This document shows, one piece after another, positions 34,762 through 63,219 of a DNA stretch of 64,000 bases. Both the position numbers and the translations under genes were made by a program. Source of the stretch: Luteibaculum oceani (GTDB taxonomy: Bacteria; Bacteroidota; Bacteroidia; Flavobacteriales_D; Luteibaculaceae); NCBI RefSeq assembly GCF_007995015.1, contig NZ_VORB01000003.1, forward strand, positions 62,001 through 126,000, read 5' to 3'. Under the pieces are notes generated by a model. That model was not told the DNA's origin and did not search any database. It saw nothing but the letters and a program-made list of their open reading frames with translations. How positions within the stretch are numbered: the first letter of the stretch is position 1; every line of letters begins with the position of its first letter.

Positions 34762-36765
34762 TTAAAGTATTTTGTCAATTTCCTTTTTCCAATCTTCGGT
34801 CTTTTCCTCAACCATCTCGGTCATATCAATTTCCCTTTTGTGGCTATTCTCAAATTCTTCTTCAAGGAATTTCAACTTCGCCTTGTTTAGCTTGGGCTGT
34901 ACCTTTGTTAAAACAGCTAACTTTCTCCAATCCTTTTGCACTTCCTTTAGGTAATTTTCATTCCAATCTATGAATGAGTAACCGTCTTGATTCAGAGCCT
35001 CTAATCTTCGCCAGTAGGCATAAACAAAATTGTTTACCACCTCTTCAACCACCTCTATATCTTTTATTTCTCCGTTGATTTGTTTCAATCGCAACTCCTC
35101 TAGTAACACTTTGGACTTACCTGTAATTTGTTTGCAGATTTTGAAGAATTCTATAGGGAGCATCTCCTGCTTTAACTCTTCACTGTACAACCTATCTAAA
35201 GCATCAAAATTTTTCTGTAACCTTCTATCCAGGGTGTCAATAAACCTATTGTATTCAACAAATTTCTGGGTTAAGGCTTCTTTCCGCTTTTCCAGAAGGA
35301 ATACATTGAATTGATTTCTAAACTGAATTTCTAAAAGAGCTGGAGCATCAATGTTTTCTAGCCATTCTGCTTCTAATATTTCAAACTCCTCTCCCAGGGT
35401 TGCTAAAGCCTCAGCATTCGGGGAAAGTGTTCTAAAAGATTTATCGACTACTGTATCCACATTCTGAACCACGTACGGATACTTCTTCTTAAACTTGATT
35501 TTCTCGTATGCGATTTTACTCTGCTCTTTTTCTAGGCGCTCTTGTTCTTTTTCAAGCAGATCTTCAGATTTATCGTGCAATTCTTTTTCGCTTTCATAGC
35601 TAGCAATGTATTGCTTATCACGCTTGCTAGTTAGTTTGTACGACTGTTTGTAGAATGAATCCCACTCTCTTTCTCTTACATACTCGTTTTTACGGGTAAT
35701 TTCTATGTAATTCATAGTGGTGTCCATCACCTCTTTCATACGGGTGAACATCCCCCTACTTTCTCTTTCTGGAATGTTTTCTTTTATGAATTTTCGATAT
35801 TCCTCATCGTTTAATATTTGAAGAAATCTGAAATAGCGCAAAGCTTTTGTTCGCGAGTTGTTGGGGAAATACGCAATCGCGTCCTCAGCCAGGAAAATCA
35901 ATTTTTCTAGATACTCTAGCTGCTCATATTGGTGTAACACCTCCTCGTAGGGATAAAAACTATTATCATACATCTTTTCACAATGCATTTTTACCCGCTT
36001 AGGTCCCTGAACAAAATCTCTTACCCCAAGGGTATCATGACGCAATTGCCACATCGGGTTACTTGGTAGGTGACGCGTTAAGAAACTATCGCTAGAAACT
36101 AAAAACCACGAATAGCCCGGATCCTTTACAAACCCGATCTTTCCAGTGTACTCCTTTACGGTATCTGTATTTACTTCAGGAACCTTAATAAGGTCTCTTC
36201 CTTTTTCCTTTAGTTTTTTGTTTTGCTCCTCAATTCGCTTGATATATTTTTCTTGCTTATCAACCGGATCGGGTTCCTTCTCCTTGTATAGAGACCCTAT
36301 GTACCCAGCGTCCCATGTGGGATCGGCCAATTCCCATTTGCCATTTATCTTAATGGCTATCCAAGCATGATCGTCTAAAACAATACTTGGAATAAAATAA
36401 GGTGCTCCAGAATTGGTATATCCCTGAACTTCTTCCCATTCTATGTCCACTTCGGAAAGAAGAGCGCCTAATAGAAAAACATAGCCAGTGCAAACCGCTT
36501 TTTGCTCCTTTAAAACATTCTCAGGGCCATTGAAAAAGGTAACCTTTCCCTTTTGCGTTTTTTCGTAATCGTATTCGATATTATTGATAACCCAAGTGTA
36601 TAGCGCCCTTACTTTTTCTCGCTCCGACTTAAAATCGGCTGTTAGATATTGAGCTAGTTCTGGAACGGATTCCCGTATTTTTTTTGGGATTTCGTTATGT
36701 TCTTTAGGACTGGAAAAAAGGGAGAGGGACAGCAATAAAAAAGCCGCGAGGCAATTGATCTTCAT
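34762..36765 (-). CDS. Exported transglutaminase-like protein with long coiled-coil region
   Basis: 667 residues from ATG 36765 (an upstream ATG at 36783 adds six residues). Signal peptide to about residue 19. The transglutaminase core follows: RALYTWVINNIEYDYE, the Cys in KAVCTGYVFLLG (Cys92), His in LDDHAWIAI (His133) and Asp in ELADPTWDAG (Asp148), so the triad is intact. The remaining 450 residues are largely helical and charged (for example KSEDLLEKEQERLEKEQSK). Such proteins are usually proteases or protein-crosslinkers in the envelope; no substrate is clear. It lies 106 bases after the coiled-coil gene at 36872, on the same strand. Confidence 0.82.
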   Translation of the reverse strand: MKINCLAAFLLLSLSLFSSPKEHNEIPKKIRESVPELAQYLTADFKSEREKVRALYTWVINNIEYDYEKTQKGKVTFFNGPENVLKEQKAVCTGYVFLLGALLSEVDIEWEEVQGYTNSGAPYFIPSIVLDDHAWIAIKINGKWELADPTWDAGYIGSLYKEKEPDPVDKQEKYIKRIEEQNKKLKEKGRDLIKVPEVNTDTVKEYTGKIGFVKDPGYSWFLVSSDSFLTRHLPSNPMWQLRHDTLGVRDFVQGPKRVKMHCEKMYDNSFYPYEEVLHQYEQLEYLEKLIFLAEDAIAYFPNNSRTKALRYFRFLQILNDEEYRKFIKENIPERESRGMFTRMKEVMDTTMNYIEITRKNEYVREREWDSFYKQSYKLTSKRDKQYIASYESEKELHDKSEDLLEKEQERLEKEQSKIAYEKIKFKKKYPYVVQNVDTVVDKSFRTLSPNAEALATLGEEFEILEAEWLENIDAPALLEIQFRNQFNVFLLEKRKEALTQKFVEYNRFIDTLDRRLQKNFDALDRLYSEELKQEMLPIEFFKICKQITGKSKVLLEELRLKQINGEIKDIEVVEEVVNNFVYAYWRRLEALNQDGYSFIDWNENYLKEVQKDWRKLAVLTKVQPKLNKAKLKFLEEEFENSHKREIDMTEMVEEKTEDWKKEIDKIL

Positions 36766-36819
36766 GGTAAAATTGATAAACAATTCTACAAATAAAGAGC
36801 AATTATTTCTCGCGGCTTT
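36740..36819 (-). promoter_or_regulatory. Terminator-like hairpin that encloses the transglutaminase start codon
   Basis: Two 11-base arms, 36809-36819 and 36740-36750, pair perfectly as AAAGCCGCGAG/CTCGCGGCTTT and are followed on the minus strand by T6. The 58-base loop holds the start codon (36763-36765). Folding would hide or end the transcript within the signal-peptide codons. Regulation is inferred from the shape only. Confidence 0.4.
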
Positions 36820-36871: not shown

Positions 36872-37843
36872 TTAATTACTTCTCGCCACTAAATCTTTGT
36901 GTTTAGATTCAGACTCCTTCTCCCAAATTTTTTCTTCACTATTTAAGAAGTGCTCTAAACGGGCCTGGAATTTTCTTATTTCGTTAAGAGTATTGTCGCC
37001 AGCTTCCTCTAGGAACTTAGCATTCTTTTGGTTAACCAGTTTGGCTTGTTGAATGGAGGCGATGTATTTTTCATCCATATCTAACAATAGCGCGGCATAA
37101 TGCCTTTGAATTATTTCCTTTTCAGTTTGATCTCTATTGGCAAACCTGCGCTCAATCTCCCCATCAATAGCTGGATAGATATCGTGCATAAAATCTAGAT
37201 GTCTAAATATTTCTGATCCGTTTACCGAAGTCGCCAGGCTATCCTGATACAATATCTTAAGCTTGTCTAATTCCTTAGCAAGATTCTTGTTAATCTTTTG
37301 AACCTCGTTGTACGCTGTGTATTCATCAAGTTTCATTGCTTGCTTTCTGCGTTCTATCAGCGTAAGAATTTTATTACTACTTGCTAGAATAGATTCACCA
37401 ACGGGTGGATTGAAAGTATCATTCCAATACCAATTTAAAAGCTGATAATAACCCGACAGTTCCACCATAAAGGATTGTAGATCCGCTACCTTTTTGGTTT
37501 CTTCCGGCTTTTCTTTAGCCTCGCAGGCCTTTAGTGTTTCGAATCTTTCGGTAAGATTTTCACTCCATTCATAGGTTTGGGTTTCGTACTTGTACAAATC
37601 CTTTTCGGAGTCTTCTATTTTACTCAGGTACCTCTTTTGCCAACGGTTCTTCTTTTTTAATAAGCGTCTATACTTCCAACCTAGTTTGTAAACGTTGTCG
37701 GATAAGCTTGCATTTTTATCTTCGTCGAAGTCTGCGTTAATAATTTGTGCATCTAAATTTGATGCTTCGGGGCGCGTATCCTTATCTTGGGCAAACGCCG
37801 AGATGGAAAACGCCATTAGAAGGAGTAAAATTGATCGGGCCAT
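36872..37843 (-). CDS. Exported coiled-coil protein of unknown function
   Basis: 323 residues. Signal peptide to about residue 18 (ISAFAQ). The rest is helical: KYRRLLKKKNRWQKRYLSKIE, EVQKINKNLAKELDKLK and QRHYAALLLDMDEKYIASI suggest several long helices and a helical bundle. A single pair of Trp-rich turns (LLNWYWNDTF) sits in the middle. No known domain recognised. It precedes the transglutaminase-like gene on the same strand and both proteins are exported and helix-rich, so they may work together. Confidence 0.6.
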   Translation of the reverse strand: MARSILLLLMAFSISAFAQDKDTRPEASNLDAQIINADFDEDKNASLSDNVYKLGWKYRRLLKKKNRWQKRYLSKIEDSEKDLYKYETQTYEWSENLTERFETLKACEAKEKPEETKKVADLQSFMVELSGYYQLLNWYWNDTFNPPVGESILASSNKILTLIERRKQAMKLDEYTAYNEVQKINKNLAKELDKLKILYQDSLATSVNGSEIFRHLDFMHDIYPAIDGEIERRFANRDQTEKEIIQRHYAALLLDMDEKYIASIQQAKLVNQKNAKFLEEAGDNTLNEIRKFQARLEHFLNSEEKIWEKESESKHKDLVARSN

Positions 37844-37975: not shown

Positions 37976-39022
37976 ATGAGTGCATCGATAGACCACAACA
38001 ATATTTCGAAGAAGAAACCCTTTTTCCCCGTTAGTGACAGACTAGAAAGATATCTTAGGGATTATCAAAGAAAATGCAAGTTACCGGTAGAGTACGACGA
38101 TCTTTTGCACTATAGCCAATCCTTCCCTCTAACCGACGACAATGGTGTTGACACACTGTGGGAAACAGTGATGTACGATCCATCCACCCAGGAAGAATTG
38201 AATATTGGGTTGACAGCGATTTACACCCTGTTAAAAACCGATGGTGATGATAGAGTTAAACGCCACTTGTACGTTAGTAGAATAGATTATTGCTGTTTTG
38301 GTAATAGTAATCCATTCCGCATTAGAATAGTGAACAAGTTTAACGACAACTACGACTATTTCTACATTAAAAAAGTAGATGCAAGTAGGATTTATGGTTT
38401 GGAGTTGGAGCACCTTTTGTCGCCAGACCGGATTAACTTTTTAGTTGGAGATAATTCGCTGATTGAAGAACACATTGCGGGAATTCCTGGTGATGTATTC
38501 ATTCAAAACTATTTGCATTCCCCACAAATAAACAGAGTAAGGGTGGCCAAAGAGTTTGTTAAATTCAATGAGCGTAGCTTTGTTCGGCTCTTGGGTGATA
38601 TGCGATCGTACAACTACGTGGTAAATATTACACCCGACTTCGATAACGAGCAATATAGAATACGTGCTATTGATTTCGATCAGCAATGCTACGAGGGGCG
38701 AAGAACCATGTACCTCCCACAGTATTTTAAAGAGAACAACCCAGTAGTTGATTTTTGTGTGGAATTAATAAACGAAGAAACAGCCCGACAATACCAATAT
38801 GAGGAGCGCACCCTAATTGCACGAAGACTGATTTCCTATCGATACCAAATAAAGGCTTTAATAGATTGCATGCGGAAAGATCACATCTCGAAACAGGAGA
38901 AAGTAGACCAACTTCGCGAAGAATTAGCAAATCATCACCGCGATCCCAAGTTTTTGAAGTGTAAAAACATGGGAGACCTACTTAGAAGAAACCTGTACAA
39001 AACCCTTGCTAAGACCCTGTAA
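37976..39022 (+). CDS. Uncharacterised protein with protein-kinase-like fold signature
   Basis: 348 residues, no signal peptide or membrane helix, so cytoplasmic. No family recognised by name. From about residue 115 I read an ordered set of kinase-like elements: a strand with FYIKKVD (Lys132/133, candidate ATP lysine), a helix with ELEHLL (Glu143/145), a linker IEEHIAGIPGDVF, then LLGDMRSYNYVV (Asp208, four residues, Asn213, the spacing of the HRDxxxxN catalytic loop) and RAIDFDQQ (Asp233, candidate metal-binding DFG equivalent). The N-terminal 110 and the C-terminal 100 residues match nothing known. The kinase reading is an inference. It is single, with a helicase gene behind it on the same strand. 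Confidence 0.6.
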   Translation: MSASIDHNNISKKKPFFPVSDRLERYLRDYQRKCKLPVEYDDLLHYSQSFPLTDDNGVDTLWETVMYDPSTQEELNIGLTAIYTLLKTDGDDRVKRHLYVSRIDYCCFGNSNPFRIRIVNKFNDNYDYFYIKKVDASRIYGLELEHLLSPDRINFLVGDNSLIEEHIAGIPGDVFIQNYLHSPQINRVRVAKEFVKFNERSFVRLLGDMRSYNYVVNITPDFDNEQYRIRAIDFDQQCYEGRRTMYLPQYFKENNPVVDFCVELINEETARQYQYEERTLIARRLISYRYQIKALIDCMRKDHISKQEKVDQLREELANHHRDPKFLKCKNMGDLLRRNLYKTLAKTL

Positions 39023-39142: not shown

Positions 39143-40669
39143 ATGGCAGAAAATCAATACGAACTACTCGAGAAAAAACAGGGTAAAAAATTTTACAACT
39201 ATCAGCAAAAAGCACTCGATCAGATTTTCGTAAAGATTAATGAAAATCCAACCCATTATAACCTACTTTATCAACTTCCAACCGGGGGTGGTAAAACGGT
39301 TATTTTTTCGGGGATAGCTAGAAGATATATCCAGGAAGTATCCAAAAAGGTACTTATTCTCACCCATAGAATTGAATTGTGTGGCCAAACCTCCAACATG
39401 TTGGATGAGTTTGGTGTACCCAACAAAATAATAGATAGTAAGGTAAAAAAATTACCTACCGACGATCCGCACCTTTGTTATGTTGCCATGGTTGAGACCC
39501 TGAACAACAGACTACAAGAAGGGGTGATGGATTTTAAAGATGTTGGACTGGTGATTGTCGATGAGGCACACTACAATTCTTTCAGAAAACTATTTAAGTA
39601 TTTCGAAGAGCAGGTAATTTTAGGAGTTACCGCAACACCGTTAAGCTCTAACGCCAAACTACCGATGTACGAGGTGTACAAAGAATTAATAGTTGGCGAC
39701 TCCATCCGATCTTTGATTAAGCAAGGGTTTCTAGCAAAGGGAATTACCTACACCTACGATGTTAACCTCACGTCTTTAAAAGTGGGAACCAACGGTGACT
39801 ACACCGTTGCATCCTCCGAGAAGTTATACTCCTCAATTATAATGCAGGAAAAATTACTGCAGGCATATGAGGAAAAGGCCTTGGGAAAAAAGACCTTGAT
39901 CTTTAATAACGGAATCAACACTTCAAAGTACGTTCTTGGACTTTTTAGAGAAGCGGGCTACGATATCCGTCATCTCGACAATACCAGCAATTCTAAAGAG
40001 AGAAAAGAAACGCTTAAATGGTTTAAAGAAAAACCCGATGCGATTTTAACTTCTGTAGGTCTCTTAACCACTGGTTTTGATGAACCAACCGTAGAGTCTA
40101 TTATACTAAATAGGGCTACGAGATCACTTACCTTATATCACCAGATGATAGGTAGAGGTTCGCGTATTTTACCTGGAAAGGATGAATTTCAAATCATAGA
40201 CCTAGGTAATAACGCAGCACGGTTTGGATTATGGGATTCTCCATTAGACTGGCAACATATTTTCCAATCACCTGAGGATTATTACGACAATTTAGTTTCG
40301 GACGAAGAGATACAGCGCCATTTCCAATATGAAATGCCCGATAGCCTTCGCAGTAAATTTGCCAATACCGAAGATGTCACCTTTGATATAAAAGGGGAAT
40401 ACAAAAGAGCTATTGCTGAGGGTAAAAAACCTCGAATTGTAATTGAAAAGGCCATCTCTCACCATGCTAAAATGTGTATAGAAAATAGCGACGATTTATT
40501 TGACGCTAAAGCACTTGCCCGTGAGTTAAAGGAAGATATCAATTACAAAGTGCGCCTTTATTCTTACTGCATTTGTAAAACAACCAACAACTACTTAAAG
40601 TGGTTGGAAGAAGATTACACCAGACGACTAAACGGAAAAATCAGCGAGGAGTACGCCGCCGTTATGTAG
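39143..40669 (+). CDS. SF2 DEAD/DEAH-box helicase
   Basis: 508 residues. Motif I PTGGGKT (46-52), Ia LTHRIEL, II VDEAH (139-143), III VTATP, IV-V SVGLLTTGFDEPTVES, VI HQMIGRGSR. Both RecA-like domains are complete, up to about residue 370. The last 140 residues form a separate charged region (AISHHAKMCIENSDDLFDA and others) that I do not recognise. RadD/YejH-type helicases have a similar two-domain core, so a role in DNA repair or unwinding is possible. The Bacteroidota promoter lies 20 bases upstream of the start. Confidence 0.88.
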   Translation: MAENQYELLEKKQGKKFYNYQQKALDQIFVKINENPTHYNLLYQLPTGGGKTVIFSGIARRYIQEVSKKVLILTHRIELCGQTSNMLDEFGVPNKIIDSKVKKLPTDDPHLCYVAMVETLNNRLQEGVMDFKDVGLVIVDEAHYNSFRKLFKYFEEQVILGVTATPLSSNAKLPMYEVYKELIVGDSIRSLIKQGFLAKGITYTYDVNLTSLKVGTNGDYTVASSEKLYSSIIMQEKLLQAYEEKALGKKTLIFNNGINTSKYVLGLFREAGYDIRHLDNTSNSKERKETLKWFKEKPDAILTSVGLLTTGFDEPTVESIILNRATRSLTLYHQMIGRGSRILPGKDEFQIIDLGNNAARFGLWDSPLDWQHIFQSPEDYYDNLVSDEEIQRHFQYEMPDSLRSKFANTEDVTFDIKGEYKRAIAEGKKPRIVIEKAISHHAKMCIENSDDLFDAKALARELKEDINYKVRLYSYCICKTTNNYLKWLEEDYTRRLNGKISEEYAAVM

Positions 40670-56832: not shown

Positions 56833-59800
56833 TTACCTGGTTACGGTAACAGTTCCATGCTCTTTAAACACCACTTTCTCGTTATATGCAGAGGTTAAGC
56901 TAATGTGGTAAACAAATACTCCAGGAGGAACTAATTCGTTTCCTGAAATCGTTCTACCATTCCACCCCTCATCAGGATTTTTTGTTTCAAACATTAGTTC
57001 TCCCCAGCGGTTGTAGATTTTAAACTCATACTTCCCTTCCATAGGTTGATCTACAATAGGTCGGAACACATCGTTTATTCCATCACCATCTGGTGTAAAT
57101 GTGCTTGGAATGAAAACCTGAAGAACACCTGTTACCTCTATCATCTTGCACAAAGTATCTGCACATCCACCATTATTCTTTACCGCCAAACAAATCTCAT
57201 GCAGACCCGGTTCAGCAGGAAAATCGTATTTCAATCTTCCTTTAGCTCCCACAACACTGCCATTAAATATCCAGTTAAATTTAGTTGCGTCCATTGAAGA
57301 GGTAGATCTAAAGGTAATCTCCGATTGCATGGTGGTAGGCTCTCCTGGTCCATACTCAAAATCAGCTATAGGATCGTCGAATGATCTAAATACAACCTCA
57401 CCGGAGTTGGTACATCCATGAATGGTAGTAACCTCTAACCCAAGCCCTAAAGAAGAATTAGGCTGGTCTAAAACAGGGTATACACTGTCTATGTTATTCT
57501 GAACATTACCATTTAAGTTCCATTGAAAAGAAGCTGTCTTGGCATCGTAACTCATGTCTTCGTCGAAATACGCAACCGGGGTAAATGGTGCACAACCTAC
57601 CAAGGCTGGCAAATACTGAATATTTGCGGCAGGCAAAGGTTTAGATACTACATCTACAGGGTTATTTATAACTGTTCCTACACAACCCGTTACCGTATTC
57701 ACCACTCCTGTTGGAGTCAACCTTAAACTGTCGTTTGCACTCAACTGACTGAATGAGAATGTACCACTACCACCATTTAAATTAACGGAATAAGGCTTTT
57801 GATTGTGGTCTTTATAATTCACATTAAACGGTCCGCTACCACCACTAATGATGTAACCGACAGTTGCTGCATTTTCATCTGCACAAATTTTGTCCCCAAC
57901 TGTAAATCTTACTTCAGGATTTTCGTTAACGGTTAGCTCCAACTTAGCGGGCAATCCTATGGGGGGACATTGTGGATTACTACCGTCTTTAATATCAGTA
58001 ATTCTCCACTCACTTGTTGCCACTCCAGCAAAAGGTTGTGATTCAAAAAGTCCATCATCCGGTACGTTTGCGCTAAAAGAACCATTTAACCCATCGGTAT
58101 AGGATACCGTAAAGGGACCATTTCCTTCTATTTCGAATAAAATGGTTGTGTTTTCACCTTCACAGATTGGGTTTTGACTAAAGCTCATACTTTTTACCTT
58201 GGGAGCAGGGTTTACAACAATTTGCGTTGACCCCGTCCCTGAACCAACACAACCGGCACCACCACTTTCGGCTATACTTTTTCCAGTCACGGTGTAGGTT
58301 CCCGCCGCTAAACCAGGAATACTTAACGTACCATTTCCGTTGATATCATTTCTTGGGATATCAACATCGTAAGCACCTCCATTAGATACATTAAAAACTA
58401 AATCAAAAGGTCCATTTCCTGAAACCGTGTATGGTATGCTTGCGTTTGATCCCTCACAAATTTCTTCCACTCCTTGGGTAAGGGTTAATTTAGGGGTACT
58501 ACTAACTTGTAGTGGGAACGAACTGGTATTTGTCCCCGAACAAGAATGTACTCCTCCGTCTGTAATCGACACTATTCTAAGGGTGTAATTGCCTGGTGCA
58601 GGAGCTGGAAAACTTTCTGTTATTCCCGAACCAGCTGGATTTGAGAAGGAACCAAGAACATTATCGTTTTGATCTACAATGTCGAAATCTACGTTCCCTT
58701 CTCCACTAGCGAAATAGGTGAAGTTTACCATATCCCCTTCACATACTTCGGTAGGAATGTTGGGCACAACTGTAGGCAAAGATTTTACGGTAATGTTAGC
58801 GATATCGCCACCGCCGGTACATCCCGCAGAAGTATTGTCGGTAACACTTAATATCCTAATCTCATAAGTACCTGTATTTCCCTGTGGATTATAAAGCACA
58901 GAAGTTTTAGAACCCTGACTAACTGTAACAGGGGTTTGTGTAAATCCATCAATAAGCCAATTAACAGTTAAATCCCCGCTACCGCTTAAGTATTGAAAAT
59001 CAATATTGATAGTCTCATCAACACAAATTGTTTCTTGCTTAGATGGATTTAAATCTAAAGGATCTACAAGATTGAAACCAACCTGGGCATTAGGGCCATC
59101 GTTTACGGTAACACTCGCAGAACCAGATCCCGATCCTGAACAACCTGTTGCTTGATCGTCAATTCTATTTATGGTGAATGAATAATTCCCCGCAGGATAT
59201 GGGTTAGGAATTAACAGTGTATCCACTCTTTTATTTGCGGTTACATCTACGTTCCCGCCCAAACCATTACGGAAATTAATATCCCAAGGGCCAATTCCAG
59301 TAAGACTTACAATAAGTTGAATAGGATTACCCGGACAGTAAGCAGAGTCCGTTCCTAAAATCACACCCGAAACTGGTGGGTTTACGGTGTATGAACCTAA
59401 ACCAACTCCAGGGCAAATAGAACCAGAGTTATCTACAACTGAATCAATAGTATAGGTGATAGGACTTTCATTATCCTCGAAGCTTGGAGCCCCAGTAAAT
59501 CCATTCGCATCGCAGGTGTATACGTCTTGTACGGCATTGAAATCGTTACTCACGTATATAGTCCACTGCGTACCCGAACCGGTTACATCTATATCCAGAA
59601 GCGATCCAGAAACTCCACAACCGCTTCCTGCTTTAATAGTTGCTGTTGGAGCCACATTCACATCTAGATTTACTGAATTTCCAGTTCCAACACAGCCGTT
59701 CTTATCTACCACGTTTGCAACCGTGTAGGTTGTATTGCTTATTTCCGAAACCGTTTGGGTAGCACTACGACCGACTCCACTGTAAGGAGCAGCGCTTCCA

Positions 59801-62800
59801 CCATTAATAATAATATCAAATGGTGCAGCGGCATTTACCGTTGTTGCGGTTAAAGTAGCTTGATCTCCAGGACAAATAGGATTAGGACTAACTGTTAGCG
59901 TAGTTACCGGATTTCTGTAAAAAATAACGGGTGTTCCTTGGCTAACAATAAAGCATCCATCACTTTGCAGAGGGAAATTAGATCCATCATTATCCCCGGC
60001 ACCGCTGGAGATATAGTATGTTTTCCCGTAAGTCATCCCAGCTTGAAACCCAAATTCACCTGTGTGATTTGAGGCCCAAATTCCCGATAATGAAGGACCA
60101 TTACCTTCATGTAAGTAATAAGCTAACGTATCGTTTCCATCACTGAAATAACCACCCAAATCAATTCCCTGAGCAGTTTGTCCCTCACAAGCCACTACGG
60201 TGGTATCCGTTCTCATGTCGGATGTAGCAGTAGTACAATCACATTTTTTGTTTACGTCAATTGTTGCTCCACCGCATCCATTAGCATCCGTAATGGTTAT
60301 AGTAGTTGGTGTTTCACTTGGAATAAGGTCTGAAGTAAAGTTACCATTGCCATCGAAGCTTCCTCCAATATTTGCAGCATAAGTACTTGGATCACCGCCA
60401 ACTACTTTAAATGTTACAATGTAATTTTCATTATCTCCAGCACAGTTCACCTGAACATCAGTAATAACTGGGTTATCGTGAACATCTAAATCTATAAAGC
60501 TCTCGGATGCAATACATGGATCTACAGCGGTGATTTCGTATTTAAATCTGTACGTACCAGCGGGAACTGCAGTTGCATCGAATTCATTCCCAGTAATTAC
60601 CCCTCCAGAAGCCGTAAGCTCTGTCCAGGTTCCATTTCCATCAGGATTATTTCCTAGTAGCTGGAACAAGTTCACCGTATTATCCACGCAAACCGAACCG
60701 GTTGCATCTTCTCCGGCATAAGGCTGATTTTCAATAATTAAATTGATCACCGCCGTATCGTTCACACAAGGCAAAATAGACTCCTGAATGTACCAGAAAT
60801 TATACTCGCCATATCCCAAATTAGTAGTCGTTAAAATGGAGCCCGAAAGTTGCCCTGTGTTATCGGGGTCTTCCCATCGTCCATTTTCATCAAAATCTCC
60901 AGTACGGTAATCATTTAAATCCACCGTACCCAATGACTCACAGATATTCCCGAAATTATCATCACCTGCTTTCCAATACGGATTTACAGTAATATTTACC
61001 GTTGCCGAACGCGTACCGCAATCTCCAGTAACTTCGTAGGTAAATTGGAAGGTTGCCGGCAAAGTAGAACGATCTAATAACTCTACATCGAAGATGTTTT
61101 CGGTTAGTGCTCCAGAATTATCATCATCTATAAAAGTCCCATTAGGGTCCGCACCAACAAAGGCATCTTCTAGATTGAATGGACCATCAAAGGTACATAT
61201 TGTGGTATCCACTGGCGTTCCTGGATTAGGCTCAGGGGTAACCGTAACATCTACGGTTGAAGTTCCCGAGCAACCTGCAGTTGAAACGGTAAGTGTATAA
61301 GTCCCCTCGTAACTAGCATCCGCGGCTGTAATCACCGGATTTTCATCGCTAGAAGTAAATCCATTTGGCCCTGTCCAGCTGTAATTTGCTGCACCAGGAA
61401 CTTCAGCGAACAGTTTTAAATCTGTTCCTGCACACCAAGGCTCCTCGAAGCTAGGATTGAAAGCACCAAGTGAAATTACGTTCACATCTATGGTTTGTTG
61501 TACGTCACACTGCGACGGTAGGTTCTCTCCTCCAACAGTTAATGTGTATGTAGTACTAGCGGTAGGACTAGCTGTTGTGTTTTGCTCGTTTGGCGTTCCC
61601 AAACCTGTGGATGGAGTCCATGTGTAGGTTAACTTGGGATCCACACGATAACACATATCCACTTGGAAAGAGGGTCTATTATCGTCAAATTCCTTAACCG
61701 CTCCGTACGAACCACATCCCACATCGCTACATCCACTGGCATGAATAACTGAATTTCTTCCCGGTGTATTTGTTTTTCTCAATTGTCCCCGAGATGTTGC
61801 CCCTCGCCAACAAATTTGCACCACTAGGTTGGATTTTCCATCCCACTCAAAATTTTCATCTAACACAAGAATATTCCAGCCATCGACTAAGCTGGTATTT
61901 TTGGGCGTGTAAACAACATCTAATCCTGTAACCCATTGAGCATTTGCGCTGGAGGTATAGGATGATTTGTTGGTACAGCCCATAGAAACTTGGAAATTAG
62001 GCCAAGAACCATTGGTTGCGGAATTCAGCTCTATTTGATATATCTGGCCTCCATTTATAAAAGAGGGAAATTCCGATGCCTCAATAATGAACTGCGTTTT
62101 AGCGGAGTTGGTATAATTTCCAGATCCATTTGAACAAACTGAAACACCACCACCCGTACCAGCCCCAAGAGCCTGATAGGTATTATCGGTAACTGTACCC
62201 ATTCCAAGTTGTACATGTCTGGTAGAACCTTGGCATTCTGTTGTTTTACCACAAGAGTAATTGGGAATTCCAATTTCTGCCTCCGAAACTAGGGTAACCG
62301 TTTCACCGGGACACAGAGGGCCAGGAGGCACTTGCTCTACTTGTACTGTTTGGCGACGAACATTTACGGTAACATTATCTGTACAAGTGTTGGTGCCGTC
62401 ATCATAGGTTACGGTGTAAGTTGTGGTGTTAAGCGGCACCACTGGATCGGTGGCTCCAGTGTTTCTTGCAATACCTGTATGTTGCCAGGTGTAGGTAACG
62501 TTTGGTGGATTGGCAATAATTTGAGCATTATCCATCCCCCAGTGATCTAAATAATTTCCTGGTGTACCTGTATTACCAAGCTGTACCCATCTAATTCTTG
62601 TGTTATTGGTTAAAGCCGGAGTTAAATTGGCTGGAGTGGAAAATGGGTATCGTTTCCAGATCGTTCTATCTGGGTCATTACCATTCCCTGGACCATAATA
62701 GGCTAGGTTATTCCATGTAAGTCCGTTGTCAACTGAGTACTGCAACGCAACTCCTTCATCCCCAGCATCAGGGTTCTCGCAAGGAGATGCATTCCCATTT

Positions 62801-63219
62801 AAATCGGGATCGGCAAATCGCATATCCCACGAAATAAATGCGCCATTAGCAATGGGAAGCCCTGTAGTTTCTAAGGCCCTTGGCGAAGGAGTATTTTGGT
62901 TAAACCAAATGTGAGGTCCATTGCCAGGATGATCGGGTAAACAAGGATTATCGAATTGAGCAGTTGAGGAATTTGCCCAAGTACCGTAATTTGCTGTTGA
63001 ATCGTTGGGATCTCCCTCCGGACATTGAACCTGCCCACAGTTAAAATTATTCCTAAAGGCTAAAACCCCAGAACCTGCGGCACCCAGGCGTACGGTATCA
63101 CCACAAACAATATCAACGGAAGAAGCAAAAGCCTCCACAGTACAGCCTTGTCCAAACGTATGAAAGGTGGCGCCAATACAAAGTATCGAGGCCACCAAAT
63201 ATTTTAGGTAATTCTTCAT
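56833..63219 (-). CDS. Giant multidomain surface protein with T9SS type B (CHU_C) domain
   Basis: 2128 residues. Signal peptide to about residue 24 (HTFGQ). Roughly 90-240 holds a reelin-like jelly-roll (FISWDMRFADPD, GVALQYSVDNGLTW, DHWGMDNAQII). A second beta-sandwich region extends to about 530, followed by many Ig/PKD-like repeats of about 85 residues with 'C.G....' and 'GPF....' motifs. The C-terminus has STFTPDGDGINDVFRP, KIYNRWGELMFE and GWNGRTISG, the gliding-motility-associated domain used for T9SS surface delivery. No enzyme core is visible, so adhesion or surface structure is likely. One base separates it from the gene at 63221. Confidence 0.87.
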   Translation of the reverse strand: MKNYLKYLVASILCIGATFHTFGQGCTVEAFASSVDIVCGDTVRLGAAGSGVLAFRNNFNCGQVQCPEGDPNDSTANYGTWANSSTAQFDNPCLPDHPGNGPHIWFNQNTPSPRALETTGLPIANGAFISWDMRFADPDLNGNASPCENPDAGDEGVALQYSVDNGLTWNNLAYYGPGNGNDPDRTIWKRYPFSTPANLTPALTNNTRIRWVQLGNTGTPGNYLDHWGMDNAQIIANPPNVTYTWQHTGIARNTGATDPVVPLNTTTYTVTYDDGTNTCTDNVTVNVRRQTVQVEQVPPGPLCPGETVTLVSEAEIGIPNYSCGKTTECQGSTRHVQLGMGTVTDNTYQALGAGTGGGVSVCSNGSGNYTNSAKTQFIIEASEFPSFINGGQIYQIELNSATNGSWPNFQVSMGCTNKSSYTSSANAQWVTGLDVVYTPKNTSLVDGWNILVLDENFEWDGKSNLVVQICWRGATSRGQLRKTNTPGRNSVIHASGCSDVGCGSYGAVKEFDDNRPSFQVDMCYRVDPKLTYTWTPSTGLGTPNEQNTTASPTASTTYTLTVGGENLPSQCDVQQTIDVNVISLGAFNPSFEEPWCAGTDLKLFAEVPGAANYSWTGPNGFTSSDENPVITAADASYEGTYTLTVSTAGCSGTSTVDVTVTPEPNPGTPVDTTICTFDGPFNLEDAFVGADPNGTFIDDDNSGALTENIFDVELLDRSTLPATFQFTYEVTGDCGTRSATVNITVNPYWKAGDDNFGNICESLGTVDLNDYRTGDFDENGRWEDPDNTGQLSGSILTTTNLGYGEYNFWYIQESILPCVNDTAVINLIIENQPYAGEDATGSVCVDNTVNLFQLLGNNPDGNGTWTELTASGGVITGNEFDATAVPAGTYRFKYEITAVDPCIASESFIDLDVHDNPVITDVQVNCAGDNENYIVTFKVVGGDPSTYAANIGGSFDGNGNFTSDLIPSETPTTITITDANGCGGATIDVNKKCDCTTATSDMRTDTTVVACEGQTAQGIDLGGYFSDGNDTLAYYLHEGNGPSLSGIWASNHTGEFGFQAGMTYGKTYYISSGAGDNDGSNFPLQSDGCFIVSQGTPVIFYRNPVTTLTVSPNPICPGDQATLTATTVNAAAPFDIIINGGSAAPYSGVGRSATQTVSEISNTTYTVANVVDKNGCVGTGNSVNLDVNVAPTATIKAGSGCGVSGSLLDIDVTGSGTQWTIYVSNDFNAVQDVYTCDANGFTGAPSFEDNESPITYTIDSVVDNSGSICPGVGLGSYTVNPPVSGVILGTDSAYCPGNPIQLIVSLTGIGPWDINFRNGLGGNVDVTANKRVDTLLIPNPYPAGNYSFTINRIDDQATGCSGSGSGSASVTVNDGPNAQVGFNLVDPLDLNPSKQETICVDETINIDFQYLSGSGDLTVNWLIDGFTQTPVTVSQGSKTSVLYNPQGNTGTYEIRILSVTDNTSAGCTGGGDIANITVKSLPTVVPNIPTEVCEGDMVNFTYFASGEGNVDFDIVDQNDNVLGSFSNPAGSGITESFPAPAPGNYTLRIVSITDGGVHSCSGTNTSSFPLQVSSTPKLTLTQGVEEICEGSNASIPYTVSGNGPFDLVFNVSNGGAYDVDIPRNDINGNGTLSIPGLAAGTYTVTGKSIAESGGAGCVGSGTGSTQIVVNPAPKVKSMSFSQNPICEGENTTILFEIEGNGPFTVSYTDGLNGSFSANVPDDGLFESQPFAGVATSEWRITDIKDGSNPQCPPIGLPAKLELTVNENPEVRFTVGDKICADENAATVGYIISGGSGPFNVNYKDHNQKPYSVNLNGGSGTFSFSQLSANDSLRLTPTGVVNTVTGCVGTVINNPVDVVSKPLPAANIQYLPALVGCAPFTPVAYFDEDMSYDAKTASFQWNLNGNVQNNIDSVYPVLDQPNSSLGLGLEVTTIHGCTNSGEVVFRSFDDPIADFEYGPGEPTTMQSEITFRSTSSMDATKFNWIFNGSVVGAKGRLKYDFPAEPGLHEICLAVKNNGGCADTLCKMIEVTGVLQVFIPSTFTPDGDGINDVFRPIVDQPMEGKYEFKIYNRWGELMFETKNPDEGWNGRTISGNELVPPGVFVYHISLTSAYNEKVVFKEHGTVTVTR

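Follow-up and report, generated by a model that had tools for sequence, protein, structure and literature searches.

The gene at 37,976–39,022 (+ strand) of the window, by which we mean the whole 64-kb stretch of DNA analysed, starts with an ATG codon and codes for a 348-residue member of an unannotated protein-kinase-like (PKL) family. We put at roughly 0.75 the probability that this is a new PKL family of ATP-dependent phosphotransferases, each with one dedicated and possibly small-molecule substrate; the assignment of the predicted fold is well supported, and we infer that the members catalyze a reaction. A preliminary description of this DNA had placed the open reading frame at exactly these coordinates and had proposed a cytoplasmic protein with an unrecognized kinase-like core. 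The frame is conserved in other genomes, the predicted protein is cytoplasmic, its start lacks a signal-like sequence, and the kinase-like core is borne out at the level of predicted fold and active site.

Database searches agree with the initial impression that no family is obvious. Pfam contains no credible match to the window protein, to 21 relatives or to 10 further divergent members, and no Pfam family of the Pkinase clan scores above its curated cut-off with any of these 22 and 10 proteins; the sole clan-related name listed is IucA_IucC, in one member with an E-value of 0.059. Matches to Hemerythrin, IucA/IucC, HopA1 and similar Pfam families (E-values of 0.03–0.1, each in a single member) are rejected as chance, as are the short matches to PDB sequences (E-values of 0.02–1.5). 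NCBIfam yields nothing credible for the family, and PADLOC and PHROGs give no match. The best reading is that this is a new family without a credible match in Pfam, NCBIfam, PADLOC, PHROG or the PDB sequences.

The family is widespread, occurring in at least three phyla, and is mostly single-copy and chromosomal. In the order of the window organism it is present in 24 of 60 genomes and in its phylum (Bacteroidota) in 80 of 296 sampled genomes, and it occurs also in samples of Verrucomicrobiota (36 of 195 genomes) and Fibrobacterota (5 of 101). A scan of GTDB contigs confirmed at least 586 stretches encoding the family, and the best 80 of these include Pontibacter, Rufibacter, Hymenobacter, Chitinophaga and Verrucomicrobiaceae. 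Genomes that carry the family nearly always have a single copy, mostly on the chromosome. The proposal that this would be a lineage-specific kinase is therefore not upheld. Nearly all of the matches are very strong and there are essentially none of intermediate strength, so the family is sharply bounded. The viral contigs, phages and plasmids searched contain no family match, and with the lack of matches in PADLOC and PHROGs as well, we reject a phage, plasmid or defence origin.

An AlphaFold2 model of the full-length protein, calculated from an alignment of 63 family members, has a mean pLDDT of 90.9 and a pTM of 0.87, and contains the two-lobe core that the kinase proposal had anticipated, with beta1–5 and alphaC, hinge, alphaE, catalytic loop and beta7–8 in the right order; we named the kinase elements from their order and motifs, not from a coordinate superposition of our own. 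The N-terminal part (residues 1–97; 37,976–38,266; this and all other features of the protein are on the + strand) has a disordered start, a conserved Lys-Lys pair of which K14 is invariant, helices and a beta hairpin, as judged from the model and conservation. In the N-lobe-like part (residues 98–165; 38,267–38,470) the predicted secondary structure runs from beta1 (98–106) through a CFGNSNP loop to beta2 (114–120), beta3 (125–133, containing K132), helix C (136–148, containing E143 and E145), beta4 (155–157) and beta5 (161–165). The glycine-loop-like segment CCFGNSNPFR (C106–R115; 38,291–38,320) lies between beta1 and beta2; N110, P113 and R115 are invariant in the family, and G109 is kept in 189 of 198 members with Ala in the other nine. 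A hinge-like segment, EEHIAGIPGD (residues 164–173; 38,465–38,494), with E164, H166, G169 and P171 invariant, leads to helix D (172–178) and helix E (187–203), and these are followed by the catalytic-loop-like GDMRSYN (207–213; 38,594–38,614), beta7 (214–220), beta8 (225–231), the putative metal-binding DFDQ (233–236; 38,672–38,683), which would be the DFG equivalent, and helices to the C-terminus. The last of these form a predicted C-terminal part (residues 243–348; 38,702–39,019) of C-lobe-like helices without a recognized domain.

Foldseek comparison of the full model with the PDB gives 40 matches at E-values of 0.001 or below, and the best 50 are all kinases, headed by Vps34 (E-value 4.4e-5, probability 1.00). 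In the viral library giant-virus Ser/Thr kinases lead (E-value 4.5e-6) and most of the matches listed are kinases. The TM-scores of the full model are low (0.21–0.41, with rmsd of about 9–20 Å), which means that the superposition covers just a part of the core and the likeness is local; the flanks and the lobe geometry, as modelled, are unlike those of known kinases. The flanks, which had been described as looking new, are not separable additions; when the core alone (residues 92–266) is modelled the pLDDT is 66.7, suggesting that the flanks are part of the fold. The core-only model also matches kinases only, the best at a TM-score of 0.53 (STK17B and CLK1), and we treat these matches as supplementary because the model is low in confidence.

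All of the motifs first put forward are present (FYIKKVD, ELEHLL, IEEHIAGIPGD from E164/E165, GDMRSYN and AIDFDQQ), as is the spacing of 25 residues from Asp208 to Asp233. Their order alone is weak evidence. Among 641 unrelated ORFs of 250–450 aa, 32 (5%) contain the loose pattern K..E..DxxxxN..Dx[GDEN], as do 17% of shuffled sequences, so in this form the order is unremarkable. The strict pattern GDxxxxN..DF[DG] is rare (two of the 641 ORFs and 11 of 20,000 shuffles). Conservation is what sets the motifs apart from chance, and the argument as a whole is built on conservation together with structure. That there is no kinase fold at all, and that a coincidence of motifs has been joined by a misleading model, is extremely improbable; chance occurrence of the loose order and the low TM-scores speak for it, but the model is of high confidence with its elements in the right order, it matches kinases in two structural libraries, and the predicted catalytic residues are invariant.

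Conservation was computed over 198 distinct family members, and K132, D208, N213, D233, F234, D235 and Q236 are identical in all of them. Either Lys132 or Lys133 of FYIKKVD had been suggested as the key lysine; Lys133 varies and Lys132 (38,369–38,371) does not, so Lys132 is the one that matters, and it is the candidate ATP-binding lysine of beta3. Glu145 of ELEHLL (38,408–38,410), in the alphaC-like helix, is the candidate ion-pair glutamate and is present in 197 of the 198. The 95%-conserved positions cluster in residues 132–171 (40%) and 206–241 (36%), compared with 10–12% in the flanks. The invariance of Asp208, Asn213 and Asp233, which had been named as a check on the proposal, extends to a very fast-evolving paralogue (L314, G148:C3; branch length 3.5) that is encoded as a second copy beside a normal one (L293); it has 42% identity to the window protein and keeps all of the catalytic residues. 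We see no APE-like motif in the family, and no HRD or DFG as such. A pseudokinase or scaffold that binds a nucleotide or a partner without catalysis is highly unlikely: the sequence is divergent and catalysis is a prediction, but catalytic positions fully invariant in 198 members from three phyla would be unexpected in a protein that does not catalyze.

Placement among the PKL proteins is based on fold and active site, and we assign no named family. Profiles of kinases, HipA and APH give no significant match, and no sequence or profile method ties the family significantly to any kinase family. Comparison by hhalign with HipA, APH, CotH and DUF2252 sets from related genomes gives probabilities of about 1% or less and no significant link, and the closeness to the HipA/aminoglycoside-kinase group that had been proposed is not detectable by profile comparison at the family level. 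In the best sub-threshold core alignments D208 and N213 fall on the catalytic Asp and Asn of HipA and DUF2252 and, with APH, at the GD..N loop; such in-register loops lend mild support, because the GD..N motif drives the alignment.

The likenesses to individual families are partial. HipA (PF07804) is a bacterial PKL protein whose D-x4-N is in register in a non-significant alignment, but the hhalign probability is 0.2% or less and the family has no hipB-like partner; at 201 loci, with ORFs of at least 70 aa considered, there is no HipB-like toxin–antitoxin partner and no conserved neighbour of any kind. Membership is excluded by the lack of a HipA_C profile match and of profile–profile similarity, and HipA proper has a gene of its own in 15 of 30 relatives, the window genome among them. 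The APH/choline-kinase family (PF01636) has a GDLHxGN-like loop; 23 members have GDMH in place of GDMR, often extended to GDMHSGN or GDMHAGN, and these variants, of which the GDMHSGN type is that of a sister clade, closely resemble the loop at the active site of aminoglycoside and choline kinases. The hinge also reads like the [LIV]xExIxGxPxDxF of the APH/choline-kinase type. The hhalign probability is nevertheless at most 1%, the family has a DFD motif and a different C-terminal part, and the profile searches gave no APH match, so we reject membership. Vps34 and the PI3_PI4_kinase family (PF00454) provide the best PDB fold match, and the GD-x4-N followed after a long gap (25) by DF- resembles the GDRHxxN...DFG of PF00454, but the family has no match to this profile, a TM-score of only 0.41 and no lipid-kinase helical domain; a search of 60 related genomes with the PF00454 profile gave no match. 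Bud32, STK17B, LegK4 and other Ser/Thr kinases are matched by Foldseek at E-values of about 3e-4, with about 10–14% identity.

DUF2252 (PF10009) proteins, as in L247, L279 and L280, have nearly the same active-site motifs (GD[MA]HxxN...DFDE) and are PKL proteins with flipped lobes (PMC9758233). Membership is excluded, as the Lys/Glu part of our family precedes the catalytic loop, the reverse of DUF2252, and the hhalign probability is 0.2%. CotH is likewise excluded (hhalign probability 0.1%), and CotH PF08757 has no match in the window genome. The Lani_1194/NoeA kinase-methyltransferases are an uncharacterized PKL family reported from Flavobacteriales too, with the catalytic Lys replaced by Arg and a methyltransferase fusion (PMC9758233); the window family has the invariant Lys132 and no detected methyltransferase domain, which excludes identity with it. 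The KINtaro compilation holds 72 PKL families, 32 of them outside the usual databases (PMC10870513).

In the proposed reaction the two lobes would enclose ATP, which would be bound by the CFGNSxPF loop, by Lys132 in a pair with Glu145, and by metal ions carried on Asn213 and Asp233. Asp208 would then position an acceptor hydroxyl for transfer of the gamma-phosphate. The strongly conserved segment after the DFD motif is short, and this, with the lack of an APE-like motif, points to a single dedicated substrate, which is somewhat more likely to be a small metabolite than one or more proteins. Phosphoryl transfer is not certain, because PKL folds can also AMPylate, glutamylate or carry out other reactions (PMC10870513); examples are AMPylation by SelO, glutamylation by SidJ and NMP transfer by NiRAN. 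The family could accordingly bind ATP and transfer AMP, glutamate or another group, and its divergence from every kinase profile, its DFD where DFG is usual, and the occurrence of such activities in divergent PKL families (PMC10870513) are consistent with this. We nevertheless consider it quite unlikely, as the canonical catalytic set is intact, including the HRD-type Asp and D-x4-N. PKL proteins known to AMPylate or glutamylate are usually termed pseudokinases because their catalytic residues are altered, unlike those of this family.

The genomic context varies: no neighbour is shared by all of the 201 loci, a fixed operon partner was sought in them and not found, and the neighbours are clade-specific. 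PEP synthase is the immediate same-strand neighbour in three loci of the window's order (L237, L238 and L241, with gaps of -1 to 12 nt), malic enzyme adjoins the family gene in five Chitinophaga-type loci (L083, L086, L093, L102 and L293), and a class II fructose-bisphosphate aldolase does so in 17 loci of Chitinophagaceae (L063 and others), often with a DeoC/LacD-type aldolase beyond. In Chitinophagaceae a Peripla_BP_2 (cobalamin-type) binding protein is a further same-strand neighbour, another group has a BshA-like glycosyltransferase in this position, and the neighbours of other clades include RNase R-like proteins and a LytTR-type regulator. On the tree each type of neighbour corresponds to one or two arrangements, and the central-carbon ones to 3–4 separate arrangements; these gluconeogenic and central-carbon neighbours are a recurrent but weak lead, in a category chosen post hoc.

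In the window itself no operon is evident from the flanking genes. On the 5' side lies a divergent gene (36,872–37,843) without a credible family match, and the co-directional downstream gene (39,143–40,669, + strand) encodes an SF2 helicase-like protein (ResIII/Helicase_C). The recurrence of PEP synthase, malic enzyme and aldolase genes speaks for a protein kinase that would adjust central carbon metabolism by phosphorylating the adjacently encoded gluconeogenic enzyme or a related protein. We regard this as unlikely, since the enzyme category was picked after the fact, most clades have other neighbours and the next gene in the window is the helicase; a phosphotransferase with a dedicated, possibly small-molecule substrate is preferred.

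Other features of the region can be noted. The nearest relatives of the downstream helicase are phage-type helicases (phrog_16, E-value 5e-71), with restriction helicases matching weakly, and a domain search of it gave no nuclease or methylase domain. A secreted-looking protein of 673 residues, which combines a transglutaminase-like domain with a tail that is long and charged, is encoded at 34,762–36,783 (- strand), and an ORF of 2128 aa is present at 56,833–63,219 (- strand).

The PKL superfamily continues to expand, and odd members of it have repeatedly revealed new chemistry. The family described here numbers hundreds of proteins across three or more phyla, with intact catalytic residues, and has been overlooked by the annotation libraries tried; it is directly testable as an enzyme in the culturable genera Pontibacter, Hymenobacter and Chitinophaga. 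It may, although this is rather doubtful, be an undescribed PKL family, common in Bacteroidota and Verrucomicrobiota, whose conserved role in central metabolism is to phosphorylate, for example, a gluconeogenic enzyme, a cofactor or the precursor of a sugar phosphate; if so, it would supply a regulatory or metabolic step that had been missing in these phyla.
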